A DNA stretch of 31,695 bases. It comes from Microcystis aeruginosa W13-11. GTDB taxonomy: Bacteria > Cyanobacteriota > Cyanobacteriia > Cyanobacteriales > Microcystaceae. The stretch lies in NCBI GenBank assembly GCA_009995705.1, contig JAADBR010000032.1, positions 1-31,695 on the forward strand. The letters run 5' to 3'. Below the pieces are notes generated by a model. The model was not told the DNA's origin, ran no database searches, and worked only from the letters and a program-made list of their open reading frames with translations. Below are positions 17,766 through 30,471 of this stretch, piece by piece (within the stretch, counting starts at the first letter, position 1; every line of letters begins with the position of its first letter). A program made the position numbers and the translations under genes.

Positions 17766-19916
17766 ATGTCTTGGCATTCCCAAGTTGAACCGGCAATTAT
17801 CCAAGGAGACTTCTGGCAAGTTAGCCAGTTTTACGAAGAACTGATAGAAAGAGAACCCTTAGAAATTAGTCATTATTGGTATTTAGGATTAGCCTATCTT
17901 TTGGAAGCTAGGGAAGAAGAAGCACAAACCACATGGTTATTCGTCCTCAGTCAAGGGGATGAACAGGAGGTGATGCTGTGGACAGTAGATTTAGTCAATA
18001 TTTTGGATGGGGAAGCACGCAGACAATTAGAGTTAGGCAATTTAGAAACCAGTTGGTTAATTCGAGGACATATTCGCGAGATTAGTCCCGATAATGTTGA
18101 TAATTTACTGCGGTTTATTTTATTAGGAATTAATTTGAATTATTTCGAGCAGGAGCAGTTAAAAGCTTGGTTATTTGTTGATGTGTTAAAAACAAATAAT
18201 TTCCAGAGTCTAGAGTCAAGTCTATTAGAGGAAGTTCTCGAAAAATTTTTCGATTCTCAGATACCAGAAACCGTCCCTTACTTAGAGGTAATATTTCAAT
18301 CTAACTGTCAGCGACAAACTTTTATCAAAGTAGTAGAAGCTAAAGTAACTTCTCTAGCCATGAATAATAAACCATTGGCTATTGATATTATTAATACTTG
18401 TTTAGCAGTAGAACCAGAGCAAATTTATCTGTTAGCTGAACTTTATCAATGTTATTTTGATAATCGAGATTTTGCTGCTGCTATCCAAGTAGCTAGTCAA
18501 TTAAAAACAAGTTGTCAAGGGTTGCCTTCTCAAGCTGTCGCTGATTTTATTGCTCTTTATGTCAAATTATTTAGTGGTGATTGGGTCGATATTAAGGCAG
18601 ATGTTGAAGAGTATACAGAATCCTTGCAAAAAAGCATCGCTAATCGAGAATGTCCAAGATTATTGGATAAAGCATCCTTAACAATTTTATCCCCCCTAAC
18701 TTACCTAGAAGATAACCCAATAAAAAACCGTTACATTAGTAATTGTGTTGGTCAACTTTTTCAGGAATATGTTTGCAATAATTCTAACTGTAATTATCAG
18801 CAAGAAGCGACTATTAAGGATACCAATAAAGTTCTAAAACTTGGCTATATTGGCCATACTTTATATAATCACTCTATCGGATTAATCTCTAGATGGTTAA
18901 TGAAGTATCATGACTATAATCAGTTTCACGTCTCGTTATACCTAGTATCTCAAAAAGAAGATTTTATCACTGAAAATTGTTTTAAAAATCAGGTAAATGC
19001 TTGCTATAACTTACCGATTGATCCTCGAATAATTGCTGAAAAAATTAGTCAAGATAATATTGATATTTTGGTAGATTTAGACAGCATTACCAATAACACA
19101 ACTTGTCAAGTCATGGCACTTAAACCCGCACCAATACAAGTGACTTGGTTAGGTTTTGATGCCTCAGGAATTCCAGCAATTGATTACTATCTTGCTGATA
19201 ATTACGTTTTACCAGCAGCTGCACAGGAATATTACCAAGAAAAAATTTGGCGCTTACCTAATTCCTATATTTGTGTGGATGGTGTCGAGGTTGCTTACCC
19301 CTCTCTCCGAAGAGATGATTTAGGGATTCCAGAGGATGCAATTAATTACTTAACCGTACAAACGGGGGTTAAACGTAACCCTGAAACTATTCGACTTCAG
19401 CTACAAGTTTTAAAGGCAGTTCCTAATAGTTATTTGAGTATCCAAGGGTTAAGTGATGCTAAATCAGTGGAAAAATTATTTTTCAAAATTGCCGAGGAAG
19501 AAGGAATTAATTATGAGAGATTAAAAATCTTACCCCTCTATCCCACAGGAATTTATCGAGCAAATTTAAGGATAGCTGATGTGGTTTTAGATACCTATCC
19601 TTTTACGGGAGGAATGACAACTTTAGATGTGCTGTGGATGGGGATTCCTTTAGTTACAAAAGTTGGTCAACAATGGTCATCGAGAAATAGTTATACTTTA
19701 ATGGTTAATGCGGGAATTAGTGAGGGTATTGCTTGGAGTGATGAGGAGTATATCGATTGGGGAATTAAATTAGGTAAGGATGAACAATTGAGACGCAAAG
19801 TTATCGCTAAATTAGATGAATCTAGAAAAACTTCACCGATTTGGAATGCACGTCAGTTTACTAAAAATGTGGAAAATGCCTATCGTCAAATGTGGCAAAT
19901 CTATTGTGAAAGTTAA
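17766..19916 (+). CDS. GT41-type (SPINDLY/OGT-like) glycosyltransferase, first tandem copy
   Basis: 716 residues. The N-terminal ~330 are helical and TPR-like (SHYWYLGLAYLLEAREEEAQ at ~35-54). The C-terminal ~370 form a two-lobed GT41 catalytic region: KLGYIGHTLYNHSIGLISRW (~358-377), DNIDILVDLDS, LKPAPIQVTWLGFDASGIPA (~455-474) then DYYLADNYVLP, YQEKIWRLPNSY, and the nucleotide-sugar end VVLDTYPFTGGMTTLDVLWM then GIPLVTKVGQQWSSRNSYTL. GT41 enzymes add GlcNAc or fucose to Ser/Thr of proteins. Where the second copy has RHPVG, this one has NHSIG; that His region is the catalytic neighbourhood of OGT. Its target is unknown. The promoter should lie just upstream; the second copy follows after 17 bp. 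Confidence 0.85.
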   Translation: MSWHSQVEPAIIQGDFWQVSQFYEELIEREPLEISHYWYLGLAYLLEAREEEAQTTWLFVLSQGDEQEVMLWTVDLVNILDGEARRQLELGNLETSWLIRGHIREISPDNVDNLLRFILLGINLNYFEQEQLKAWLFVDVLKTNNFQSLESSLLEEVLEKFFDSQIPETVPYLEVIFQSNCQRQTFIKVVEAKVTSLAMNNKPLAIDIINTCLAVEPEQIYLLAELYQCYFDNRDFAAAIQVASQLKTSCQGLPSQAVADFIALYVKLFSGDWVDIKADVEEYTESLQKSIANRECPRLLDKASLTILSPLTYLEDNPIKNRYISNCVGQLFQEYVCNNSNCNYQQEATIKDTNKVLKLGYIGHTLYNHSIGLISRWLMKYHDYNQFHVSLYLVSQKEDFITENCFKNQVNACYNLPIDPRIIAEKISQDNIDILVDLDSITNNTTCQVMALKPAPIQVTWLGFDASGIPAIDYYLADNYVLPAAAQEYYQEKIWRLPNSYICVDGVEVAYPSLRRDDLGIPEDAINYLTVQTGVKRNPETIRLQLQVLKAVPNSYLSIQGLSDAKSVEKLFFKIAEEEGINYERLKILPLYPTGIYRANLRIADVVLDTYPFTGGMTTLDVLWMGIPLVTKVGQQWSSRNSYTLMVNAGISEGIAWSDEEYIDWGIKLGKDEQLRRKVIAKLDESRKTSPIWNARQFTKNVENAYRQMWQIYCES

Positions 19917-19933
19917 TTAGGGAGAATTAAACC

Positions 19934-22108
19934 ATGTCTTGGCAAAATGAAGTTAAAACCGCTTTGGAAAACAATCAATACGATATTGTTAGTCAGTTTT
20001 ACGAAAAACTGATGGAAAGAGAAACCACAGAAATTAGTTATTATTGGTATCTAGGATTAGCCTATCTTTTACAAGATAGAGAAGAAGAAGCACAAGCTAC
20101 TTGGTTATTTGTGTTCACCCAAGGAGATGAACAGGAAACCGAGTCATGGCTGCTAGAATTAAGCAATATTTTAACTACCGAAGCTAACCGACAATTAGAG
20201 TTAGAAAATCTAGAAATTTCTTGGTTAATTCGTAAACATCTACAGGAAATTAATCCCGGTTATCTCGATAATTTACTACATTTAACCCTCATTGAAATCA
20301 AATTAAATAGATTTGATCCTCAACAACTGCAAGAATGGCAAATACTAGAATTAATTACCCAGGGTTCAGTTAACTCTCAATTATTGGAACGAGTAGTAAT
20401 TGCCGTCATACCTTACGCTCATAAATATACCATAGAATTAGTTCGGTTAAGTTTACCCTATCTTGACAATTCTCCAGAATTACTTAATCACGTCATCACT
20501 GTCACCCGACACTTTGCTTTTGAGAAATATCAACCTATTTATTCCGTTGACTTAGCGGAAGCTTTTCTTCCCCTTTATCCCGAAAATTTGTACTTAATAG
20601 CTAATTTATTTTGGTTTTGTGTCTCTGTCCCTAACTACCCAACAGGGATACATCTTATCAAAGAATTTAAAGATAAAAGTCAAACAATTGATTTAAAAAT
20701 GTTTAGTCAATCTCTTCTCTTTAATGGTTCTTTACGAGCATCAAAATGGAATGACATCCCTAGTATTTGTCAAGAGTATAAACACTTAATTAAACAATTT
20801 CTAAAAGAAAAGCCTCAAGATATACATCCCTTAGTTAGAGAAGGTTTACTAACAGTTATGAACCCGATTTCTTACTATGAAGATAACCCGAAAGAGAATC
20901 GACCGCTTTTAAGTCAGATTGGCAGTTTTTTTCAAGAAACCTACAAAGAAATGCTGGGTTTTCAGGAGGAAAGTTTTGACAAACCTAGAGAATATAATCC
21001 CAATAAAAAACTTAAAATTGGTTACATTGCCCAAACCTTAAAACGTCATCCCGTCGGTTTATTGAGTCGTTGGACTATTAATTATCACAATCGTGAACAG
21101 TTTGATATTCACCTTTATATGGTGAATCAACCTGTGGATGAAATAACTCAACAATGGTTTTCTAATCCCGCAGATAAAATCTATCATGCTACTGCTGATT
21201 CCCTAGCAACTTATCGCAAAATTAAAGAAGATAACATCGATATTCTGGTAGATTTAGATAGTGGGACTGGACCCATGGTTGTCCAAGTTATTGCCTTAAA
21301 ACCTGCTCCTATTCAAGTTAACTGGTTAGGTTTTGATGGTTCCGGTTTACCCGCAGTAGATTATCTTTTAGCGGATCCTTATGTATTGCCAGAAAATGCC
21401 CAAGAATATTATCAAGAAAAAATCTGGCGTTTACCTAATGCTTTTGTCGCTGTGGATGGTTTTGAAATAGCCGTTCCTACCCTACGAAGAGAAGATTTAG
21501 GTATTAATAACGATGCGGTTATTTATCTAAGTTCTCAAACAGCAATTAAGCGTAATCCTGCGATGATTCGCTTACAAATGCAAATCATTAAATCTGTACC
21601 CAATAGTTATTTCCTGATTCAAGGAGTTGCTGATGATAATTCCCTCTGGGATTTATTCTGTCAAATTGCCGCAGAAGTTGGGGTAGAAACTAATCGAATT
21701 AAGATGCTTCCTCTCTATCAGACGGAAACCTACAGGGCAAATTTAGCCATCGCTGATGTGGTTTTGGACACCTATCCCTTTAACGGTGGTACAACCACCT
21801 TAGAAACCCTCTGGATGGGAATTCCTCTGGTGGTTAAAGTGGGGCAACAATGGTCATCCCGCAACGGTTATACTTTAATGATGAATGCGGGAATAACTGA
21901 GGGTATATCTTGGAGTGATGAAGAATATGTGCAGTGGGGAATTAAGTTAGGATTAGATAAAAATTTGCGGGAAGAAGTCCGTTATCAATTACGTCAATCT
22001 CGTCATACATCTCCCCTCTGGAATGCCAAACAATTTACCAGAGATTTAGAAAATGCTTATCGGCAAATGTGGAATATTTGCAGCCTTTCCCCTCAAGATG
22101 AAGTCTAA
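19934..22108 (+). CDS. GT41-type (SPINDLY/OGT-like) glycosyltransferase, second tandem copy
   Basis: 724 residues, homologous to the preceding protein over its full length, including the start (MSW..EV) and the helical N-terminus (SYYWYLGLAYLLQDREEEAQ). GGAG lies nine bases before the ATG. Catalytic landmarks: KLKIGYIAQTLKRHPVGLLS (~357-376), ALKPAPIQVNWLGFDGSGLP, YQEKIWRLPNAFVAVDG, DVVLDTYPFNGGTTTLETLW and GQQWSSRNGYTLMMNAGITE. The RHPVG form matches the H-P-x-G of canonical OGT better than the first copy does. The middle of the N-terminal domain (~150-330) is the most divergent part between the two copies, which may give different acceptor choice (inference). One operon with the first copy. 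A hairpin follows at 22127-22149. Confidence 0.85.
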   Translation: MSWQNEVKTALENNQYDIVSQFYEKLMERETTEISYYWYLGLAYLLQDREEEAQATWLFVFTQGDEQETESWLLELSNILTTEANRQLELENLEISWLIRKHLQEINPGYLDNLLHLTLIEIKLNRFDPQQLQEWQILELITQGSVNSQLLERVVIAVIPYAHKYTIELVRLSLPYLDNSPELLNHVITVTRHFAFEKYQPIYSVDLAEAFLPLYPENLYLIANLFWFCVSVPNYPTGIHLIKEFKDKSQTIDLKMFSQSLLFNGSLRASKWNDIPSICQEYKHLIKQFLKEKPQDIHPLVREGLLTVMNPISYYEDNPKENRPLLSQIGSFFQETYKEMLGFQEESFDKPREYNPNKKLKIGYIAQTLKRHPVGLLSRWTINYHNREQFDIHLYMVNQPVDEITQQWFSNPADKIYHATADSLATYRKIKEDNIDILVDLDSGTGPMVVQVIALKPAPIQVNWLGFDGSGLPAVDYLLADPYVLPENAQEYYQEKIWRLPNAFVAVDGFEIAVPTLRREDLGINNDAVIYLSSQTAIKRNPAMIRLQMQIIKSVPNSYFLIQGVADDNSLWDLFCQIAAEVGVETNRIKMLPLYQTETYRANLAIADVVLDTYPFNGGTTTLETLWMGIPLVVKVGQQWSSRNGYTLMMNAGITEGISWSDEEYVQWGIKLGLDKNLREEVRYQLRQSRHTSPLWNAKQFTRDLENAYRQMWNICSLSPQDEV

Positions 22109-22454
22109 CCTAATTTGCCATCGCCGACCGAAGACCGACTCCCTTCGGTTTGGTGGGTACAATGTATTCTAAGATACAGTGCTGCTGGCGAGCGAGTGCA
22201 AGGAACCACAGAGACACAGAGGACACAAAGATCGATCCTATGTAAGTTAAACTTATCACACAGAACCTAGAAGACCCCCCAAAAGAAAAACTTCGTACCT
22301 TATCACTAAGATAACTGTCATGGGTTGACTCGCTCGCTCCCACCAGTATTATGACCACAGAGATCATAATAGCTACAGAAACTGCACGATTAGATACCAA
22401 AGTCCCTCACAGATAGAAGATAATCAATATTTATCAGTATTGGAAGCCTTCAGC
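22109..22454. other. Gap with a probable terminator hairpin and a dispersed repeat motif
   Basis: ACCGAAG (22127-22133) pairs with CTTCGGT (22143-22149), 19 bp after the GT41 operon; it may end that operon, although only a short T stretch follows. At 22202-22229 the sequence reads as the complement of CTTTGTGTCCTCTGTGTCTC plus TGTGGTTC, a motif I have seen repeatedly between cyanobacterial genes. The minus-strand open frame across this gap (22110-22400) does not look like a protein. The last ~60 bp before 22455 should hold the promoter of the malic enzyme gene. Confidence 0.4.
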
Positions 22455-23846
22455 ATGGTTCATTTAACGCCCAATCCTAGCTATAGTTTAAGTCTCAAGA
22501 TAGAAATCCCCAATCAAGCGGGAACCTTCGCTTCTGTCCTCAATGCGATCGCCGATGTGGGGGGGAATTTAGGGCAAATTTCTCTAATCGAACGCAATTT
22601 AAAGATTAGCACCCGCGAGATTATGGTTGATGCCGCTAGTACCGACCAAGCGGAACAGATTATCGCTGCAGTTAAAGCTCTACCAGATGTTAAACTCCTG
22701 AAAGTTTCCGATCGCACCTTCGACCTCCATCGTCGGGGTAAAATCTCCATTGAAAGTCGTATTCCCCTCACCTCCCAAGATGACCTGGCCATGGCCTACA
22801 CCCCCGGAGTTGGTCGCATCTGCACCGCTATTGCCCACCAACCCGAACAAGTGTACTCATTGACCATCAAGGGCAACACCGTCGCTGTTGTCACCGATGG
22901 TAGCGCCGTATTAGGATTGGGAAATCTCGGGCCAGAGGCTGCCCTACCAGTAATGGAAGGGAAAGCGATGTTATTCAAGGAATTCGCCGGAATTGATGCT
23001 TTTCCCATCTGTTTAGCCACCCAAGACCCCGAAGAAATCATCGCAACCGTCAAAAGAATCGCTCCGGTTTTTGGGGGTATTAACCTAGAGGATATCGGCG
23101 CTCCACGCTGTTTTGAAATCGAGAAACGTCTGCGAGCGGAATTAAACATTCCCGTTTTCCACGATGATCAACATGGTACAGCGATCGTTTCCCTAGCTGC
23201 CCTGATTAATGCCCTCAAATTGGTCAAAAAATCGCTTGATACAGCCAAAATCGTCATTAATGGTGCAGGCGCAGCGGGAATCGCCATCGCTACTCTCTTT
23301 AAAACCGCAGGAGCTACAGATATAACCCTCTGTGATTCCCTTGGTATCCTCTCCCAAAACCGGGACGATTTAACCCCAGAAAAACAAGCTTGGGCCGTGG
23401 CCGCCAATGGTAAGCTAGGGGATGCTCTTAAAGGCGCTGATGTCTTCTTGGGGGTGAGCGCACCGGGGGTATTGACTCCCGAAATGGTCAAGGGAATGGC
23501 TAAAAATGCGATCGTCTTTGCCATGGCTAATCCGATTCCCGAAATTCAACCGGAATTAATCAATGATTTGGTGGCAGTGGTGGCTACCGGACGCAGCGAT
23601 TATCCCAATCAGATTAATAATGTTCTCGCTTTCCCCGGATTATTTCGCGGGGCCCTGGATTGTCGCGCTAGGGCAATCACCGATAATATGTATCTGGAAG
23701 CGGCCAAAGCGATCGCTTCTTTGATCACTCCTGCTAATCTTGATCGAGAGAATATTATTCCCTCGGTTTTTGATGGTCGTGTGGTTACGGCTGTGGCCGC
23801 CGCCGTTCAACACGCTGCTCGTCAAGATGGAGTGGCCGGGGAATAA
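22455..23846 (+). CDS. NAD(P)-dependent malic enzyme with N-terminal ACT domain
   Basis: I start at ATG 22455 (MVHLTPNPSYSLSLKIEIPN, 463 residues); a TTG five codons earlier is unlikely. An ACT domain (~10-85, GTFASVLNAIADVGGNLGQI) precedes the malic enzyme body. The N-terminal catalytic region has YTPGVGRICTAI (~114-125) and VTDGSAVLGLGNLGPEAALP (~145-164) with MEGKAMLFKEFAGID. The metal/substrate site follows in GINLEDIGAPRCFEIEKRL and VFHDDQHGTAIV, and the NAD(P) fold is IVINGAGAAGIAIATLFKTA (~272-291). It decarboxylates malate to pyruvate with reduction of NAD(P). The ACT domain suggests control by a small ligand such as an amino acid. A HIP1 site lies near each end. Confidence 0.93.
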   Translation: MVHLTPNPSYSLSLKIEIPNQAGTFASVLNAIADVGGNLGQISLIERNLKISTREIMVDAASTDQAEQIIAAVKALPDVKLLKVSDRTFDLHRRGKISIESRIPLTSQDDLAMAYTPGVGRICTAIAHQPEQVYSLTIKGNTVAVVTDGSAVLGLGNLGPEAALPVMEGKAMLFKEFAGIDAFPICLATQDPEEIIATVKRIAPVFGGINLEDIGAPRCFEIEKRLRAELNIPVFHDDQHGTAIVSLAALINALKLVKKSLDTAKIVINGAGAAGIAIATLFKTAGATDITLCDSLGILSQNRDDLTPEKQAWAVAANGKLGDALKGADVFLGVSAPGVLTPEMVKGMAKNAIVFAMANPIPEIQPELINDLVAVVATGRSDYPNQINNVLAFPGLFRGALDCRARAITDNMYLEAAKAIASLITPANLDRENIIPSVFDGRVVTAVAAAVQHAARQDGVAGE

Positions 23847-23877
23847 TGTAATTATCGTGCAGGAGGGCCAGTAAACC

Positions 23878-24612
23878 GTGAAACCGATCGATGATATTCC
23901 CGAAGCTTTGCGGGACAGCCAGTACAGAAAAACTACTAATCCTAATGGTCTCATAGCGATCGCAAGCGGTTTACTCGCTCTGGTGGGAACCGGCCTAATT
24001 GCCATAGCAGTCTTGAATCGTCCCCCTGCTACCGTAAAAAAACCAGTTATTAACCCCTCCCCCCTGATTAAAGCCACTCCTAGCCCCATTGAGAACATTC
24101 TAGGTCATTTACCCTACCAAGAGGCTCCGGAGACGGAATTAGCCCCTATTACTGGGGATGGTGGTATGCGTTTAAGGAAGGCAGCAGCCAAAGCTTTTAT
24201 CCAGATGCAGAGTGACGCGAGAAGGTCGGGGGTGATTTTAATGCCGATTTCCGCATTTCGATCGAAAGCAACCCAAGAAAAGCTCTTTTTTGAAGTTAAA
24301 AAACAACGCAATCAGCAAACCCGCAAACGAGCAGAAGTGAGCGCACCTCCGGGTTACAGCGAACATCATACCGGTTATGCGATCGATATTGGCGATGGTC
24401 GCACCCCAGCCACAAATTTAAGTACCAGTTTTGATAATACTGCCGCTTTTCGTTGGTTGCAAAATAACGCTGCCCAGTATAGTTTCGAGTTATCTTTCCC
24501 CGAAAATAATCCCCAGGGTATTAATTATGAGCCTTGGCACTGGCGTTTTGTCGGGGATAGTCACAGTTTAGAAACTTTTTATAAGGCTCAACAATTAGGA
24601 AAACAAAAATAA
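23878..24612 (+). CDS. VanY/DdcB-type D-alanyl-D-alanine carboxypeptidase (M15), membrane-anchored
   Basis: 244 residues from GTG 23878, with AGGAGG about ten bases upstream, 31 bp after the malic enzyme gene. A membrane helix (~27-48, IAIASGLLALVGTGLIAIAV) anchors a periplasmic M15B peptidase. Its zinc and active-site motifs are visible: MPISAFRSKATQEKLF (~122-137), SAPPGYSEHHTGYAIDIGDG (~155-174; zinc His and Asp in SEHHTGYAID) and the C-terminal EPWHWRFVG (~220-228; catalytic Glu and zinc His). Such enzymes remove the terminal D-Ala of peptidoglycan stem peptides. The last ~25 bp plus stop are duplicated 145 bp downstream around a hairpin element. Confidence 0.9.
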   Translation: MKPIDDIPEALRDSQYRKTTNPNGLIAIASGLLALVGTGLIAIAVLNRPPATVKKPVINPSPLIKATPSPIENILGHLPYQEAPETELAPITGDGGMRLRKAAAKAFIQMQSDARRSGVILMPISAFRSKATQEKLFFEVKKQRNQQTRKRAEVSAPPGYSEHHTGYAIDIGDGRTPATNLSTSFDNTAAFRWLQNNAAQYSFELSFPENNPQGINYEPWHWRFVGDSHSLETFYKAQQLGKQK

Positions 24613-24772
24613 GATAACCTTATCGGCAATTGCATCCTGTAGGGGCGAAGCATTCGGACAATAACCTATCGCTGAAACCAGAGATTTTCTATCCGAATGC
24701 TTCGCCCGTACTTTTTCAACTTTTTAGAAAAACCAACAATTAGGAAAACAGAAATAGGATAACCTTATCGGC
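24589..24772. repeat. Hairpin element (16-bp perfect stem) bracketed by a direct repeat of the preceding gene end
   Basis: GGGCGAAGCATTCGGA (24643-24658) pairs exactly with TCCGAATGCTTCGCCC (24692-24707), leaving a 33-base loop. The 38-base stretch starting CAACAATTAGGAAAACA at 24589 recurs at 24734 with a few mismatches. The first copy is the end of the carboxypeptidase gene with its stop; the second is non-coding. The layout is that of a small palindromic element within a local ~145-bp duplication. Confidence 0.8.
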
Positions 24773-24838
24773 GATCAATGGCATTTTCTGGAATTAATTA
24801 CTAAGATAGGATTACATTGTCTTGTGAGCGTTTCTGAT

Positions 24839-25183
24839 ATGTCCAAGCTGATAAAATACTTAACAAATGAGCAGGGAGAACGAGTCGGGGTTTTATTAGA
24901 CTGGAACACCTATTCTCGATTTGCCAATTCATTAGGACTCGATGAAGATTGTTTGGTTGGTTTGAGTGTGGATGAATTAAAAGCGCTGGCAAGTTGTCAA
25001 TTGTCCCTCGTAGAACAAACCCGTTTAGATGATTTAGTGACGAGAAATGCAGAATCTTTACTCTGCGCTGATGAGGTAGCGGAGTTAGATGAGTTGTTGG
25101 CAAAAACAGATCAATTAACAATTCTTAAAACTCGTGCCAGATATACGCTAAAGTGTTTGCAACAAGGTACGACAGCAGCGTGA
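24839..25183 (+). CDS. Antitoxin-like protein of a cyanobacterial small family
   Basis: From ATG 24839 (MSKLIKYLTNEQGERVGVLL, 114 residues); a GTG at 24824 would add five. The N-terminus LTNEQGERVGVLLDWNTYSR resembles the strand-helix opening of Phd/YefM-type antitoxins. The rest is helical and acidic: CLVGLSVDELKALASCQLSL, LDDLVTRNAESLLCADEVAE, LDELLAKTDQLTILKTRARY. Many cyanobacterial genomes carry this arrangement, and the ending DQLTILKTRARYTL is very typical of it. No toxin gene follows; the NACHT gene comes 155 bp later. Whether it acts as an antitoxin here is unproven. Confidence 0.65.
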   Translation: MSKLIKYLTNEQGERVGVLLDWNTYSRFANSLGLDEDCLVGLSVDELKALASCQLSLVEQTRLDDLVTRNAESLLCADEVAELDELLAKTDQLTILKTRARYTLKCLQQGTTAA

Positions 25184-25338
25184 GTGTTTATATTCGGATG
25201 GGGTTTTCCCTGTCTGACAGGAGAGGGATGCAGAAACTCCGATTCTATCTTGTAAGTCATGACCAAATCTTCTTAGCCTACAATTAAAAATATTAGAGAG
25301 TTTCATCGGGATTCCTTCTCGAACTAACAGACAAGTAA

Positions 25339-27093
25339 ATGATTGACTGGACTCCTTATCTCACATCAGTCTCTGAAAAGTACGCCCAGTGGGAGACATT
25401 TTACACCCTCACCGACGTAGAGGGAAAAACACGCCCGTCGAAAACTGCACCTTTGCTAAGGGATTTGTGGGTGCAGACGATTGAAAAAGAACGGGAAAAC
25501 CCGCAAGAAAGACCAGAAAGACCAGAAAAAACCGAAAGATTCACGGTTTTAGATGGTTTACGCAAGTATAAGGCTAATCACGTTCTTTTAAAAGGTCGTC
25601 CGGGTTCAGGAAAATCGACCGCTTTAGCAAGATTGTTATTAGAAGAAGCGCAAAGCTTGCGCCCAAATCAACAAAATCAGGCTAAAATCATTCAAATTCC
25701 CATTCTCATCGAATTACGCTTTTATGAAACCTCAATTCTTGATTTAATTTTACAATTCCTGAAACGCCATAAATTAATTATTGATAGTAATACCCTAGAA
25801 AGTTGGCTGTTAGAAAATCAGAATTTTAGACCATTATTATTATTTGATGGTATCAATGAATTGCCCTCAGATACTGCACGACAGAAATTAAAAAACTTTC
25901 GCCAGCAGTATGCAGAAATCCCGATGATTTTCACAACAAGGGATTTAGGCAGCGACGACTTAAATATTGAGAAAAAGCTGGAAATGCTCCCCCTGAGCGA
26001 ACCACAGATGCGGGATTTTGTCAAGTCCTATTTGCCCGAAAAAGGCGAAGAAATGCTTAAACAGTTGGGAAATCGTCTCAAGGAATTGGGAGAAACTCCT
26101 CTGCTTTTGTGGATGCTTTGTTCAGTTTTTGATAATAATGAGAACAAAATTCCTGCTAATTTGGGCTTAGTTTTCCAGATTTTTACAGGAATTTATAACA
26201 AGAAATTAAAAGCAGATGTTCCTACTTACCAAGAATCGCGGGATTGGTGGCGAGAATTGCTGCAAGTGTTAGCTTGGAAAATGACACAAGGGGAGTCAAA
26301 AACTGAGATTCAGGTGGCTATTTCCCGAACAGAAGCAGAGGAAGAATTAACGAAATTTATCAAAAATAAAGGATTTCCCGAATATTACGGTAAGCAGTGG
26401 TTAGAGGATTTACTGAAATATCATCTAATTCACCTAGAAGGTAATGATAAAATTGCTTTTCGCCATCAACTGATTCAAGAATACTACACGGCTGAGGAAT
26501 TACAGAAAAAACTACGCCATCTCAAGGATGAGCAGTTAAAGTGGGACTATTTGAATTATCTCAAATGGACGGAACCTGTGGCGTTACTGTTGGGAATGCT
26601 GGATAAAAAAACTGATGCCCTACGAGTGGTGAATTTAGCTTTAGTGGTTGATAAAAAGTTAGGAGCGAGGTTAGCAGGAGAGGTTAAAAAAGACTGGCAA
26701 CAGGAAACCGTTGCTTTAGTTTTAGGCTTAAATTTACCTCAATTGTTTACTATTGAATTGCTAAAAATGACTCGATCTGATGCGGCTATTTTTAGATTAA
26801 TTCAATTCTTAAAAAACTCTAATTCTGATGTTCGTAGAAATGCAGCAAAAGCTCTTTTTAAAATTGGTGGCTCAAAAATCATCATTCCAGAGTTAATTAA
26901 AGCCTCAGAACACTCCTATATTCCAGAGTTAATTAAAGCCTTAGAACATTCATATAAGAAGTATTTTTGTAGTCAAGCATCTCTGGTTAATATCAAATTA
27001 AAAGCCGCCATTTCTAGTTTAATTGAAGCCTTAGAAGACCCCTATAGCGGTATTCGCTTGAGTGAGATACAGACAAAGTCTTGCCTAGACTGA
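25339..27093 (+). pseudogene. NLR-like NACHT NTPase with HEAT repeats, 5' part of a gene split by a MITE
   Basis: 584 codons before a stop inside the inserted element. The NACHT NTPase has Walker A GRPGSGKST (86-94), Walker B PLLLFDGINELP (166-177) and sensor IFTTRD (197-202). A winged-helix-like region follows (~270-400, with HQLIQEYYTAEEL), then linker helices and HEAT repeats from ~490 (NSDVRRNAAKALFKIGG). The genuine sequence stops at about residue 568 (LEDP); the rest is read from the element. Without the 93-bp element and its TA duplication, the frame runs into 27140-28100 as one 888-residue NACHT-HEAT-TIR protein. Such STAND NTPases are bacterial relatives of NLR immune sensors: the HEAT part would sense, NACHT would oligomerise, TIR would be the effector. 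As it stands only a TIR-less sensor can be made, unless the element is spliced, skipped or excised. Confidence 0.85.
26884..26955 (+). repeat. 36-bp in-frame tandem duplication in the HEAT region
   Basis: Two 36-bp units (26884-26919 and 26920-26955), 33 of 36 bases identical, encode IPELIKASEHSY and IPELIKALEHSY. A HEAT repeat is ~31 residues, so this 12-residue duplication breaks the regular spacing locally. It looks recent and keeps the frame. Confidence 0.85.
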
Positions 27094-27137
27094 CTTATAG
27101 CTTGTTGCAGTATACCTCATTCGACTGCATACCGCTA
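27045..27137. mobile_element. 93-bp MITE with TA target duplication, inserted in the NACHT-HEAT-TIR gene
   Basis: The element starts TAGCGGTAT (27045-27053) and ends with its exact complement ATACCGCTA (27129-27137). Inward of these the arms remain partly matched (GAGTGAG against CTCATTC at 27060-27066 and 27116-27122). TA flanks it on both sides (27043-27044 and 27138-27139), the target duplication of IS630/Tc1-mariner-type elements. It encodes nothing. Deleting element plus one TA (95 bp) gives D-P-Y-K-Y-A-R-N-Q-S-A-E-A-L-F-K-I-G, a regular HEAT repeat in one frame, which confirms the borders. Its transposase would have to be supplied from elsewhere. Confidence 0.85.
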
Positions 27138-28100
27138 TATAAGTATGCTCGTAATCAGTCGGCAGAAGCCCTATTTAAAATTGGCACAGAAGCAGCGATT
27201 GCCAAGTTACTCAAGGCTTTAGAAGACTCTGATTGGGGTGTTCGTAGCAACGCAGCCGCATCCTTGGGTGAAATTGGCTCAGAAACAGCGATGACTGAAC
27301 TTATCAAATGCCTGAAAAATCCTGCTTTTGTCACATTAAATAATGGCGAGACTCTCTCTAAAGCTAGAGAAGCACTAGACACAATTCAAAACAAACTTAA
27401 ATACTATCACCCCCTCTGCCAACCCATGAATCAACAAGTTTACATCTCCTACAACTGGCAAGAAGACAGCAACGAAATGGCTAATCAACTCGTCCAAGCA
27501 TTTGCCGCTAAAGGAATTGAGATTATTCGGGATAAAACCCACACCATCTATAAAGACTCCATCAAAAACTTTATGCAGCAAATTGGACAGGGGAAATGTG
27601 TCGTCGCCGTCATCAGCGATAGATACTTAAAATCAGAAAACTGTATGTTTGAATTAGTAGAAATTGCTAGAAATGGTGACTTTTATCAAAGAATATTCCC
27701 GATTATTTTACCAGATGCCAGAATTTATAAAGACTTCGAGCGCATAGACTACCTGAAATATTGGGAAGACGAAAAAGCAAAACTACAAGCAAAATACAAA
27801 CACATTGATTTAGCTAAAACTAATAGTATCTTGGCGACATTAAACTTATATGATGAAATCAGGGGCAATATTGATAATCTAACTAACATTCTTAAAGATA
27901 TGAATACTCTCAATATCGACTTACACCGCCAATCGGAATTTGCAGCTATGATTGAAGCAGTAGAAACTAAACTTGCAGAGGATGGTCAAACATCATCTAA
28001 TCAATCTCCAGTCAAGTCAGAATCTAAATATACTATCCATGCCAAAAACCTCCAGATTATTGAAAAAGGTGATGGCCAGATTCAGGATTCTAGTTCGTAG
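27081..28100 (+). pseudogene. HEAT-TIR 3' part of the split NLR-like gene
   Basis: The frame opens with a TTG inside the MITE (MPRLTYSL...), so its first ~20 residues are element-derived. Native sequence resumes at about 27140 with HEAT repeats (NQSAEALFKIGTEAAIAKLL; SDWGVRSNAAASLGEIGSE). An ATG at 27426 opens the TIR domain: MNQQVYISYNWQEDSNEMAN, then CVVAVISDRYLKSENCMFEL. The Glu of CMFEL is where TIR NAD-cleaving enzymes carry their catalytic Glu, so NADase activity is plausible. After the TIR (to ~residue 235 of this frame) come a helical stretch, a Ser/Gln-rich linker and the final motif SKYTIHAKNLQIIEKGDGQI. That motif recurs in the 29887-30471 protein. A TIR-only product from 27426 is conceivable, but no ribosome site is seen. 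Confidence 0.85.
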
Positions 28101-28206
28101 TTGTGCTTAAGCGGGTGCATCTCAGATTTGCAGAAATACCGAAAACTTTTCGCTTTAAAAGGCGAGGTTTTAGACCAGATTTTTTTGATAACTTTTAATT
28201 GCTGAC

Positions 28207-28467
28207 ATGACTAAATATCTAAACATTACTGAAACAGGACAAAAGCTGGTTGAATGGTCTGAGCAAATGACTGACGAACCTATTATTACCAAAGAAGGTC
28301 AACCCATTATGGTTGCCCTGAATTACGCTCAAATTGAATCTTGGTTAGAAACTCTTGATATTTTACAAGACAAAGAGTTTGCCGAAATCCTATCTGAAGC
28401 GATTCAACAGGATCAATCAGGACAAAGAATTACTTGGGAAGATGCTAAAAAACAACTCGGTTGGTAA
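28207..28467 (+). CDS. Phd/YefM-type antitoxin
   Basis: 86 residues: MTKYLNITETGQKLVEWSEQ, MTDEPIITKEGQPIMVALNY then AQIESWLETLDILQD. The block P(I/V)I.K.G.P..V...Y..(I/W) is the DNA-binding antitoxin signature, followed by an acidic helical toxin-binding tail (EFAEILSEAIQQDQSGQRIT). Such antitoxins normally precede a RelE/ParE-type toxin, but none follows within the next 200 bp. It may be an orphan left by deletion or may act on a toxin elsewhere. It lies 106 bp after the TIR gene. Confidence 0.85.
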   Translation: MTKYLNITETGQKLVEWSEQMTDEPIITKEGQPIMVALNYAQIESWLETLDILQDKEFAEILSEAIQQDQSGQRITWEDAKKQLGW

Positions 28468-28672
28468 CTGCTAAACCAATAGGTTCTTGCTGAATCGTCA
28501 GATATACACCTATTACTTTTTCAGAGATAGCTAGTTTTGGAGAGGATAGTCAAAATATTCCTACTTCTACTACAAAAACCTCGTCCTCATCATCTACTCA
28601 ATCTCAAGGACTGTAGGATGCTATACTTCTCACAGGGATAAACTGGTAAATTGGAGGAAAAATCCATCAATA

Positions 28673-28864
28673 ATGATACCCACCCCCGAACAGATGCTTA
28701 CTTGCCTTAGAATGTGTCAAACCCTGTCTAATTTCTATACCGATATTCATCTATTTCGCTATGATGAAAAACGAAAGGAGATTTATATACTAGCAGGTGA
28801 AACTCTTAGCTTTATCATATTAACTAACGGAAATGTGGAGTTTGAAGATGAATCATCAACCTGA
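28673..28864 (+). CDS. Small cyanobacterial protein, DUF6888-like
   Basis: 63 residues beginning MIPTPEQMLTCLRMCQTLSN and continuing FYTDIHLFRYDEKRKEIYIL, AGETLSFIILTNGNVEF. A GGAGG lies 15 bases upstream, farther than ideal. It overlaps the next gene by 17 bp in another frame, an arrangement I associate with paired DUF6888/DUF6887 genes in cyanobacteria. No function is known. The tight overlap suggests the two act together, for instance as an antitoxin/toxin-like or two-subunit unit (inference). Confidence 0.7.
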   Translation: MIPTPEQMLTCLRMCQTLSNFYTDIHLFRYDEKRKEIYILAGETLSFIILTNGNVEFEDESST

Positions 28865-29051
28865 TTTTTACCAAATGTCTCGCCCAGAATTAAGAAAATA
28901 TGTCCTCTCCCATCGAGAAGATGATGAAGCCTTAAGAATTTATATGGATAGAATGCGAACTGAACCAGGTGTAACTCGATTTACCCTGACTCCTAGTCAA
29001 GAAGACATGAAGAAATTAGAAGAATTTCTCAGGGCAAAAATGGATAAATAA
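28848..29051 (+). CDS. Small cyanobacterial protein, DUF6887-like
   Basis: From ATG 28848: MNHQPDFYQMSRPELRKYVL, SHREDDEALRIYMDRMRTEP, GVTRF, 67 residues. The pattern F..MS..ELR.YVL.HR.D..A...Y.DR is characteristic of this small family. It overlaps the end of the DUF6888-like gene, so translation is likely coupled. It is strongly charged, helical and probably soluble. The function is unknown; the next gene (HEAT repeats) starts 42 bp later and could be in the same transcript. Confidence 0.75.
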   Translation: MNHQPDFYQMSRPELRKYVLSHREDDEALRIYMDRMRTEPGVTRFTLTPSQEDMKKLEEFLRAKMDK

Positions 29052-29886: not shown

Positions 29887-30471
29887 ATGGCACTCAAACC
29901 TGACTATTTACAGATAGTTATCGAAGTCTTTTCAAAAAGACTACAACATCCGAATGTTCAAATGCGGATAAAAGCCGCTCAATGTCTTAGAAATATTGGC
30001 AATGAATCAATAATACCTCTCCTATGCCAAGCATTAGAAGAAGAGAATAATCTCGATGTTAAATTCTCCATTATGGATGCTATAGTGTTAATAAATAACT
30101 TAACTTCAGAAACACCTATGTCAGAAAATCCTCAAGGCTCTAAATACAACATTGTTCAACCCCAAAACGTCCAGATTATTGAACAGGGTGATGGCATTAT
30201 TCATAATTACGCCACACCCCAAAATTTAGCCGAAGCCGCCCAAGAAATCCAACAACTTATCAGCCAACTCACTCAGAATTATCCCACTAATACCGAAGTT
30301 GAAAAACAAACTTTTGTCGCACAAGTTGACGCAGAAATCAAGAAAAATTCTCGCCTAAAAAGCATTTTAATCATGGGAGGAATTGAATTAATTAAAATTC
30401 TCTGTCCTCCCCTCGGTATTCCCGTTGAAATGGGTAAAAAATGGCTAGAAACTGCCAGTTTAAGTGATTAA
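29887..30471 (+). CDS. HEAT-start protein with a GDG-type motif and helical C-terminal domain
   Basis: 194 residues. Residues ~10-70 continue the HEAT pattern (NVQMRIKAAQCLRNIGNESI). Next comes a short motif (~84-104) SKYNIVQPQNVQIIEQGDGI, then IHNYATPQNLAEAAQEIQQL and a helical domain (~118-194) with a hydrophobic segment SILIMGGIELIKIL. The NYA..QNLAEAA.EIQQL module after a glycine-rich stretch is common in cyanobacterial proteins encoded beside NACHT/TIR-type genes, in my recollection. The motif is shared with the C-terminus of the TIR protein (28021-28090). One base separates this ATG from the stop before it, so it is coupled to, or a frame-shifted continuation of, the eight-repeat HEAT gene. 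Confidence 0.75.
   Translation: MALKPDYLQIVIEVFSKRLQHPNVQMRIKAAQCLRNIGNESIIPLLCQALEEENNLDVKFSIMDAIVLINNLTSETPMSENPQGSKYNIVQPQNVQIIEQGDGIIHNYATPQNLAEAAQEIQQLISQLTQNYPTNTEVEKQTFVAQVDAEIKKNSRLKSILIMGGIELIKILCPPLGIPVEMGKKWLETASLSD

Follow-up and report, generated by a model that had tools for sequence, protein, structure and literature searches.

A Microcystis gene of NLR-like design has very probably been split by a MITE of IS630/Tc1-mariner derivation, which hit a TA in its HEAT-repeat region. To all appearances the inactivation is genuine, of recent date and of a rather ordinary sort. The gene lies in a 31,695-nucleotide stretch of Microcystis aeruginosa W13-11 DNA (hereafter the window), for which a first-pass annotation had claimed an element of 93 bp whose inverted ends are perfect over 9 bp, with a TA on either side. 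All of this can be read directly at positions 27043-27139 (Table 1). The inverted arms are 27 nt long and 78% complementary, with the outer 9 bp perfect, and the fold of the element was matched by 1 of 200 shuffled sequences (z -2.76). Short, with inverted ends and without a transposase gene, the element is a MITE. It had also been described as lacking coding capacity, which holds insofar as it contains no gene, but the upstream ORF enters it and stops after ~15 element-coded residues, which are thereby added to the truncated product; the C-terminal open frame is listed from a TTG at 27081, within the element. No promoter-like site lies in the element. The interval 26950-27450 holds a single such site (27376-27405, against 1.1 expected), which falls outside the element, and no terminator, and we therefore rejected the element as a source of either. 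No Rfam family reached its gathering threshold in the window.

Table 1. Coordinates of the split gene, the inserted element and the upstream neighbors in the window.
Feature	Position	Strand	Basis or remark
MITE, 93 bp	27045..27137	.	9-bp perfect inverted ends TAGCGGTAT/ATACCGCTA, read from sequence
TA, target duplication, left copy	27043..27044	.	compared with empty site of L051
TA, target duplication, right copy	27138..27139	.	compared with empty site of L051
N-terminal half, NACHT NTPase and first HEAT repeats, 584 aa	25339..27093	+	ORF and domain search; ends inside element
C-terminal half, HEAT repeats, TIR domain and short tail	27138..28100	+	ORF and domain search
Upstream neighbors, ORFs 22440-23846 and 23878-24612	22440..24612	+	same order in relatives

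An uninterrupted allele exists in a related strain, M. wesenbergii FACHB-1317 (L051), in which a gene is 94-95% identical to the N-terminal half. The two loci are identical over 347 bases (26700-27046) and 94.5% identical over 362 bases from 27138, and at the site itself L051 is exactly 95 bp shorter than the window. Because the empty site reads GACCCCTATAAG, the target duplication is a 2-bp TA, in agreement with what had been proposed. The frame in L051 is open for 853 codons, its upstream neighbors (presumably a malic enzyme and a carboxypeptidase) are those of the window, and identity over 22300-28300, taken 300 bp at a time, is 93-100%, save for one bin of 88% at the gene start. For a NACHT-HEAT-TIR gene of the one-protein kind, nature thus offers a split allele alongside an uninterrupted one, if not a clean isogenic pair, because downstream identity is 94.5%. 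Among the best 120 of the 947 database proteins passing the limit, 11 span the insertion site, all of them uninterrupted, and the tail encoded by the MITE is absent from all 120; the remaining 109 lack the site sequence and are uninformative either way. The joined reading expected on removal of the element, EDPYKYARNQSAEALF, is present uninterrupted in L051 and in the 11 proteins, and the figure of 888 codons given for the joined frame is correct by coordinate arithmetic. The 95 bp are therefore not shared by all homologues, and a TA-bounded empty site and many further copies of the element both exist. That the insertion at 27045-27137 is recent, as the annotation had held, is supported by the empty site in a close relative and by an identical family copy.

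In profile searches of the window, the two halves matched NACHT (PF05729, 33.3 bits; cut-off 26.7) and TIR (TIR_2, 53.7 bits), respectively. Bacterial NACHT/STAND immune proteins carry a STAND NTPase, repeats and an effector in one chain. The intact gene would likewise encode a one-protein NLR-like product, with a NACHT switch, a HEAT solenoid and a TIR effector on a single chain; it differs in that the TIR domain is C-terminal, after the HEAT repeats, and in that PADLOC returned weak matches in the window, limited to mad8, bSEFIR and PDC-S66. The Walker motifs and the TIR glutamate, which we take to be the catalytic residue, are invariant in 22 aligned relatives that we selected from the hit list. 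The TIR domain aligns weakly with plant TIR domains, including that of L6 (E 1e-4), and its glutamate aligns with that of L6. We infer an immune role for the gene. By analogy with TIR NADases, its product probably acts as an immune effector that cleaves NAD under the control of the NACHT switch.

The element belongs to a multicopy family, which bears out its earlier identification as a MITE: a copy in G008 is identical to the window over 97/97 bases, and copies sit at TA-flanked sites. The nearest genome compared (G001, with 31% of sampled 31-letter words in common with the window) holds 20 copies, and the family occurs in 12/12 Microcystis species genomes, with 2-29 matches each (E<=1, lone ends counted). 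Likeness to the window copy reaches 90% or more in 29 of the parsed copies (15 in G010, 10 in G001, two in G008, one in G009 and the window copy itself) and stays below 90% in 67, most at 80-85%. An order-wide search of 195 genomes (E<=1e-5) gave seven with a match, of which three were Microcystis; the other four matched at 73-77% across most of the element or at 91-97% over 29-33 end bases. In plasmid searches, a Microcystis plasmid gave one partial match to the MITE (84.1% over 65% of its length), and a Calothrix plasmid encodes one relative of the protein, at 40%. Spread by phage was considered and rejected, as 50,697 phage records contained no match to the MITE and no relative of the intact protein at E<=1e-10. 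Nezha, reportedly described by Zhou in 2008 (a work cited in PMC10969869), is said to be an IS630/Tc1-mariner-type MITE of cyanobacteria; the present family, 93-94 bp long, resembles cyanobacterial MITEs of this type in being short and non-coding, with inverted ends, many copies and a TA target.

Two variants of the element were seen in G012. Twelve copies (L099-L110, including the reference L099) carry a ~200-bp unit consisting of the MITE plus ~104 bp at varied sites, with a less exact fit at L104, and a composite MITE may be spreading there. In L063 (1238-2489), an ORF for a PhyH-like dioxygenase (1452-2384) has a complete MITE on one side and an isolated matching end on the other, a possible cargo unit.

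An IS630-type relative, which the annotation had also postulated, is present in the genus. An element of ~1.08 kb in G003 (L065) is flanked by TA and encodes an open transposase of 321 codons, which scores 200.7 bits against the NCBIfam IS630 model (cut-off 100). Of 29 end bases, 23-25 agree with the MITE, so that the ends are similar though not identical. This supports classing the MITE as a non-autonomous IS630/Tc1-mariner derivative, which an IS630-type transposase may have mobilized in trans. Relatives of the G003 transposase occur in 11/12 Microcystis genomes (E<=1e-30), and among the 12 genomes G003 alone has a full-length match without an internal stop at that threshold. The mobilizing enzyme is not proved, since G001 combines its many copies with no match to the G003-type transposase at E<=1e-30.

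We propose that the transposase of an IS630 relative would have moved the MITE in trans into a TA within the HEAT-repeat region, duplicating the TA and splitting the frame. Because the NACHT and TIR parts now lie on separate chains, we infer that the insertion inactivates the gene; function would return most simply by recombination with an intact allele. The two separate products could retain some activity.

To see where copies land, we took 99 of at least 108 full-length family matches together with the window. These 100 loci gave 96 distinct parsed sites, leaving out L116, L138 and L063 (unparsed) and L019 (a duplicate). TA stood on both sides at 95 of the 96, and the remaining one had GA and TA. 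Both flanks of a parsed site were common to one genome pair alone (L017/L114). Sites were scored as splitting an ORF if at least 70 open codons lay on both sides on one strand, a test that insertions near gene ends escape. Four of the 96 did so, whereas 537 of 2000 positions drawn at random from these loci passed (25.8 expected under this null, P 6e-9), and ORF-splitting insertions are therefore usually purged. The four split ORFs are the window gene, a NACHT-GUN4 gene in G005 (L125), a TPR gene in G010 (L083) and a transposase in G012 (L113). For the NACHT-GUN4 gene, exact empty sites exist in G002, G006, G007 and G008, and the G006 copy has a stop inside its NACHT match. For the TPR gene, an exact empty site was sought and set aside: its homologues differ in their repeat arrays, and the site is inexact.

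The orthologous gene is also broken elsewhere in Microcystis. A close N-terminal half (76-95% identity) was found in 8 of the 12 genomes and not detected in the other four, in one of which (G009) the contig ends inside the gene. The gene is uninterrupted in G011 (853 aa), G001 (1157), G004 (1313) and G012 (922, TIR not found), and the ORF in G007, of 1085 codons and lacking TIR, stops 144 bases short of the contig end and is assigned neither as intact nor as broken. In G002, the HEAT array is interrupted by an IS701 element that has inverted ends of 12 bp and has duplicated 4 bp, TTAG; in G003, ~274 residues remain and the rest is lost, with an IS630-like fragment below the NCBIfam cut-off nearby; and in G010, an internal stop is combined with loss of everything past ~residue 433. 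Breakage thus affects 3 of the 8 close orthologues, or 4 of 9 with the window, a rate that need not be high for an accessory gene. These sequences hint that the NACHT-HEAT-TIR locus may have been lost again and again in bloom-forming Microcystis. As the orthologues are broken by other lesions, the gene is easily lost, being dispensable or at times costly. Four database proteins of 409-459 residues with odd ends (P0071, P0074, P0081 and P0082) are perhaps further truncated alleles.

On balance we favor, with some reserve, a neutral loss, in which a MITE landed by chance in a dispensable gene of a repeat-rich genome. Such a loss is consistent with the variability of the locus, including the four genomes with no close N-terminal half and the varying HEAT number and C-terminal domain among orthologues, although the deficit of ORF-splitting sites indicates that insertions of this kind are seldom tolerated. 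We hold it doubtful that, as the annotation suggested, the insertion would have been selected to escape self-toxicity or another cost of an intact TIR gene. The three other broken orthologues and the second NACHT gene split by the same MITE family, in G005, speak for selection, but repeated breakage fits dispensability as well as it fits escape from self-toxicity, and insertions gather in dispensable genes too. Moreover, two of the four split ORFs are NACHT genes, which looks striking, but once the window copy is excluded from the count because it was picked for its location, one of three is a NACHT gene. The chance of this is 0.037-0.058 under a rough null, which takes the 12 genomes to have 108 NACHT genes of 700-1100 codons and assumes a pass rate of 0.85, and the NACHT excess among MITE-split ORFs is no more than a hint. 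Should this gene prove to be broken more often than other dispensable genes, genomes could serve to measure what NLR-type immunity costs bacteria. A broader scheme, in which small mobile elements repeatedly switch off Microcystis NLR-type genes that are harmful at times and bloom alleles restore them by recombination, seems to us rather improbable; if true, it would amount to a population-level on/off cycle of immunity through MITE/IS insertion and recombination.

It is very improbable that the split gene still works as separate NACHT-HEAT and HEAT-TIR proteins: both halves are otherwise open and internal ATG codons precede the TIR part, but the element lacks a promoter-like site and 4 of 8 close orthologues keep the uninterrupted form. 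Reactivation by precise excision, which the annotation had envisaged, found no support, and a phase-variable switch in which clean exit of the MITE restores the gene is very unlikely. For the related ISY100, transposase cleavage is described as exact at the 3' ends but displaced inward by two bases at the 5' ends (PMC2170065), and this pattern, as given there, predicts extra bases left as a scar rather than clean excision. The insertion is also the derived state among the 11 homologues spanning the site, and G001 lacks a transposase match (E<=1e-30); the scarless empty sites in relatives are equally expected if nothing was ever inserted. An assembly artefact from a repeated element can practically be dismissed, given the exact TA duplication, the clean 95-bp difference and the unique site. 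The reading in which an IS630/Tc1-mariner-derived MITE split the gene is the one we retain.

MITEs in Microcystis are mentioned in PMC11448079, where sbp in dmcyB of strain PCC 7806 is described as split by a 187-bp ISL3-type MITE, with an uninterrupted allele known. As described, that case resembles ours in being a MITE that splits a Microcystis protein gene, and differs in element family (ISL3), duplication length (8 bp) and target (a transport gene). The window has a likeness to the same element at 2731-2961, where MPPYRTITSNEE occurs in an ORF and GGCTCTTCG once in the DNA (2786), two sequences named for that MITE (PMC11448079). IS and MITE insertions have been published for cas genes (PMC10359306), likewise bacterial immunity genes inactivated by mobile elements, there of CRISPR-Cas; by that account such inactivation is already known, and the window adds a NACHT-HEAT-TIR case. 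Among the top-ranked matches of our literature search, where absence is not proof, we found no MITE splitting a bacterial NLR-like gene.

The tail that follows the TIR domain (28026-28100, KYTIHAKNLQIIEKGDGQI) resembles a motif, KYNIVQPQNVQIIEQGDG, in a downstream HEAT protein (29887-30471) with a hydrophobic C-terminus. The G012 gene without TIR has a different tail, YDFRGATIGNLAHNVQG, and its adjoining gene carries a matching YDLRGANIANFADTVQG. In a comparison of the window with L056-L062, tail types agreed in 4 of 5 loci read for both genes (window, L058, L059 and L062) and not in L060, where the partner is truncated. Such matched tails recall the BASS amyloid signaling pairs, as these are described in PMC8086366. 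Beside the split gene, 28207-29051 holds small genes with a weak, below-cut-off match to Phd/YefM antitoxin and with DUF6888 and DUF6887. At 17766-22108, two adjoining similar long ORFs of 716 and 724 aa are apparently a tandem duplication.
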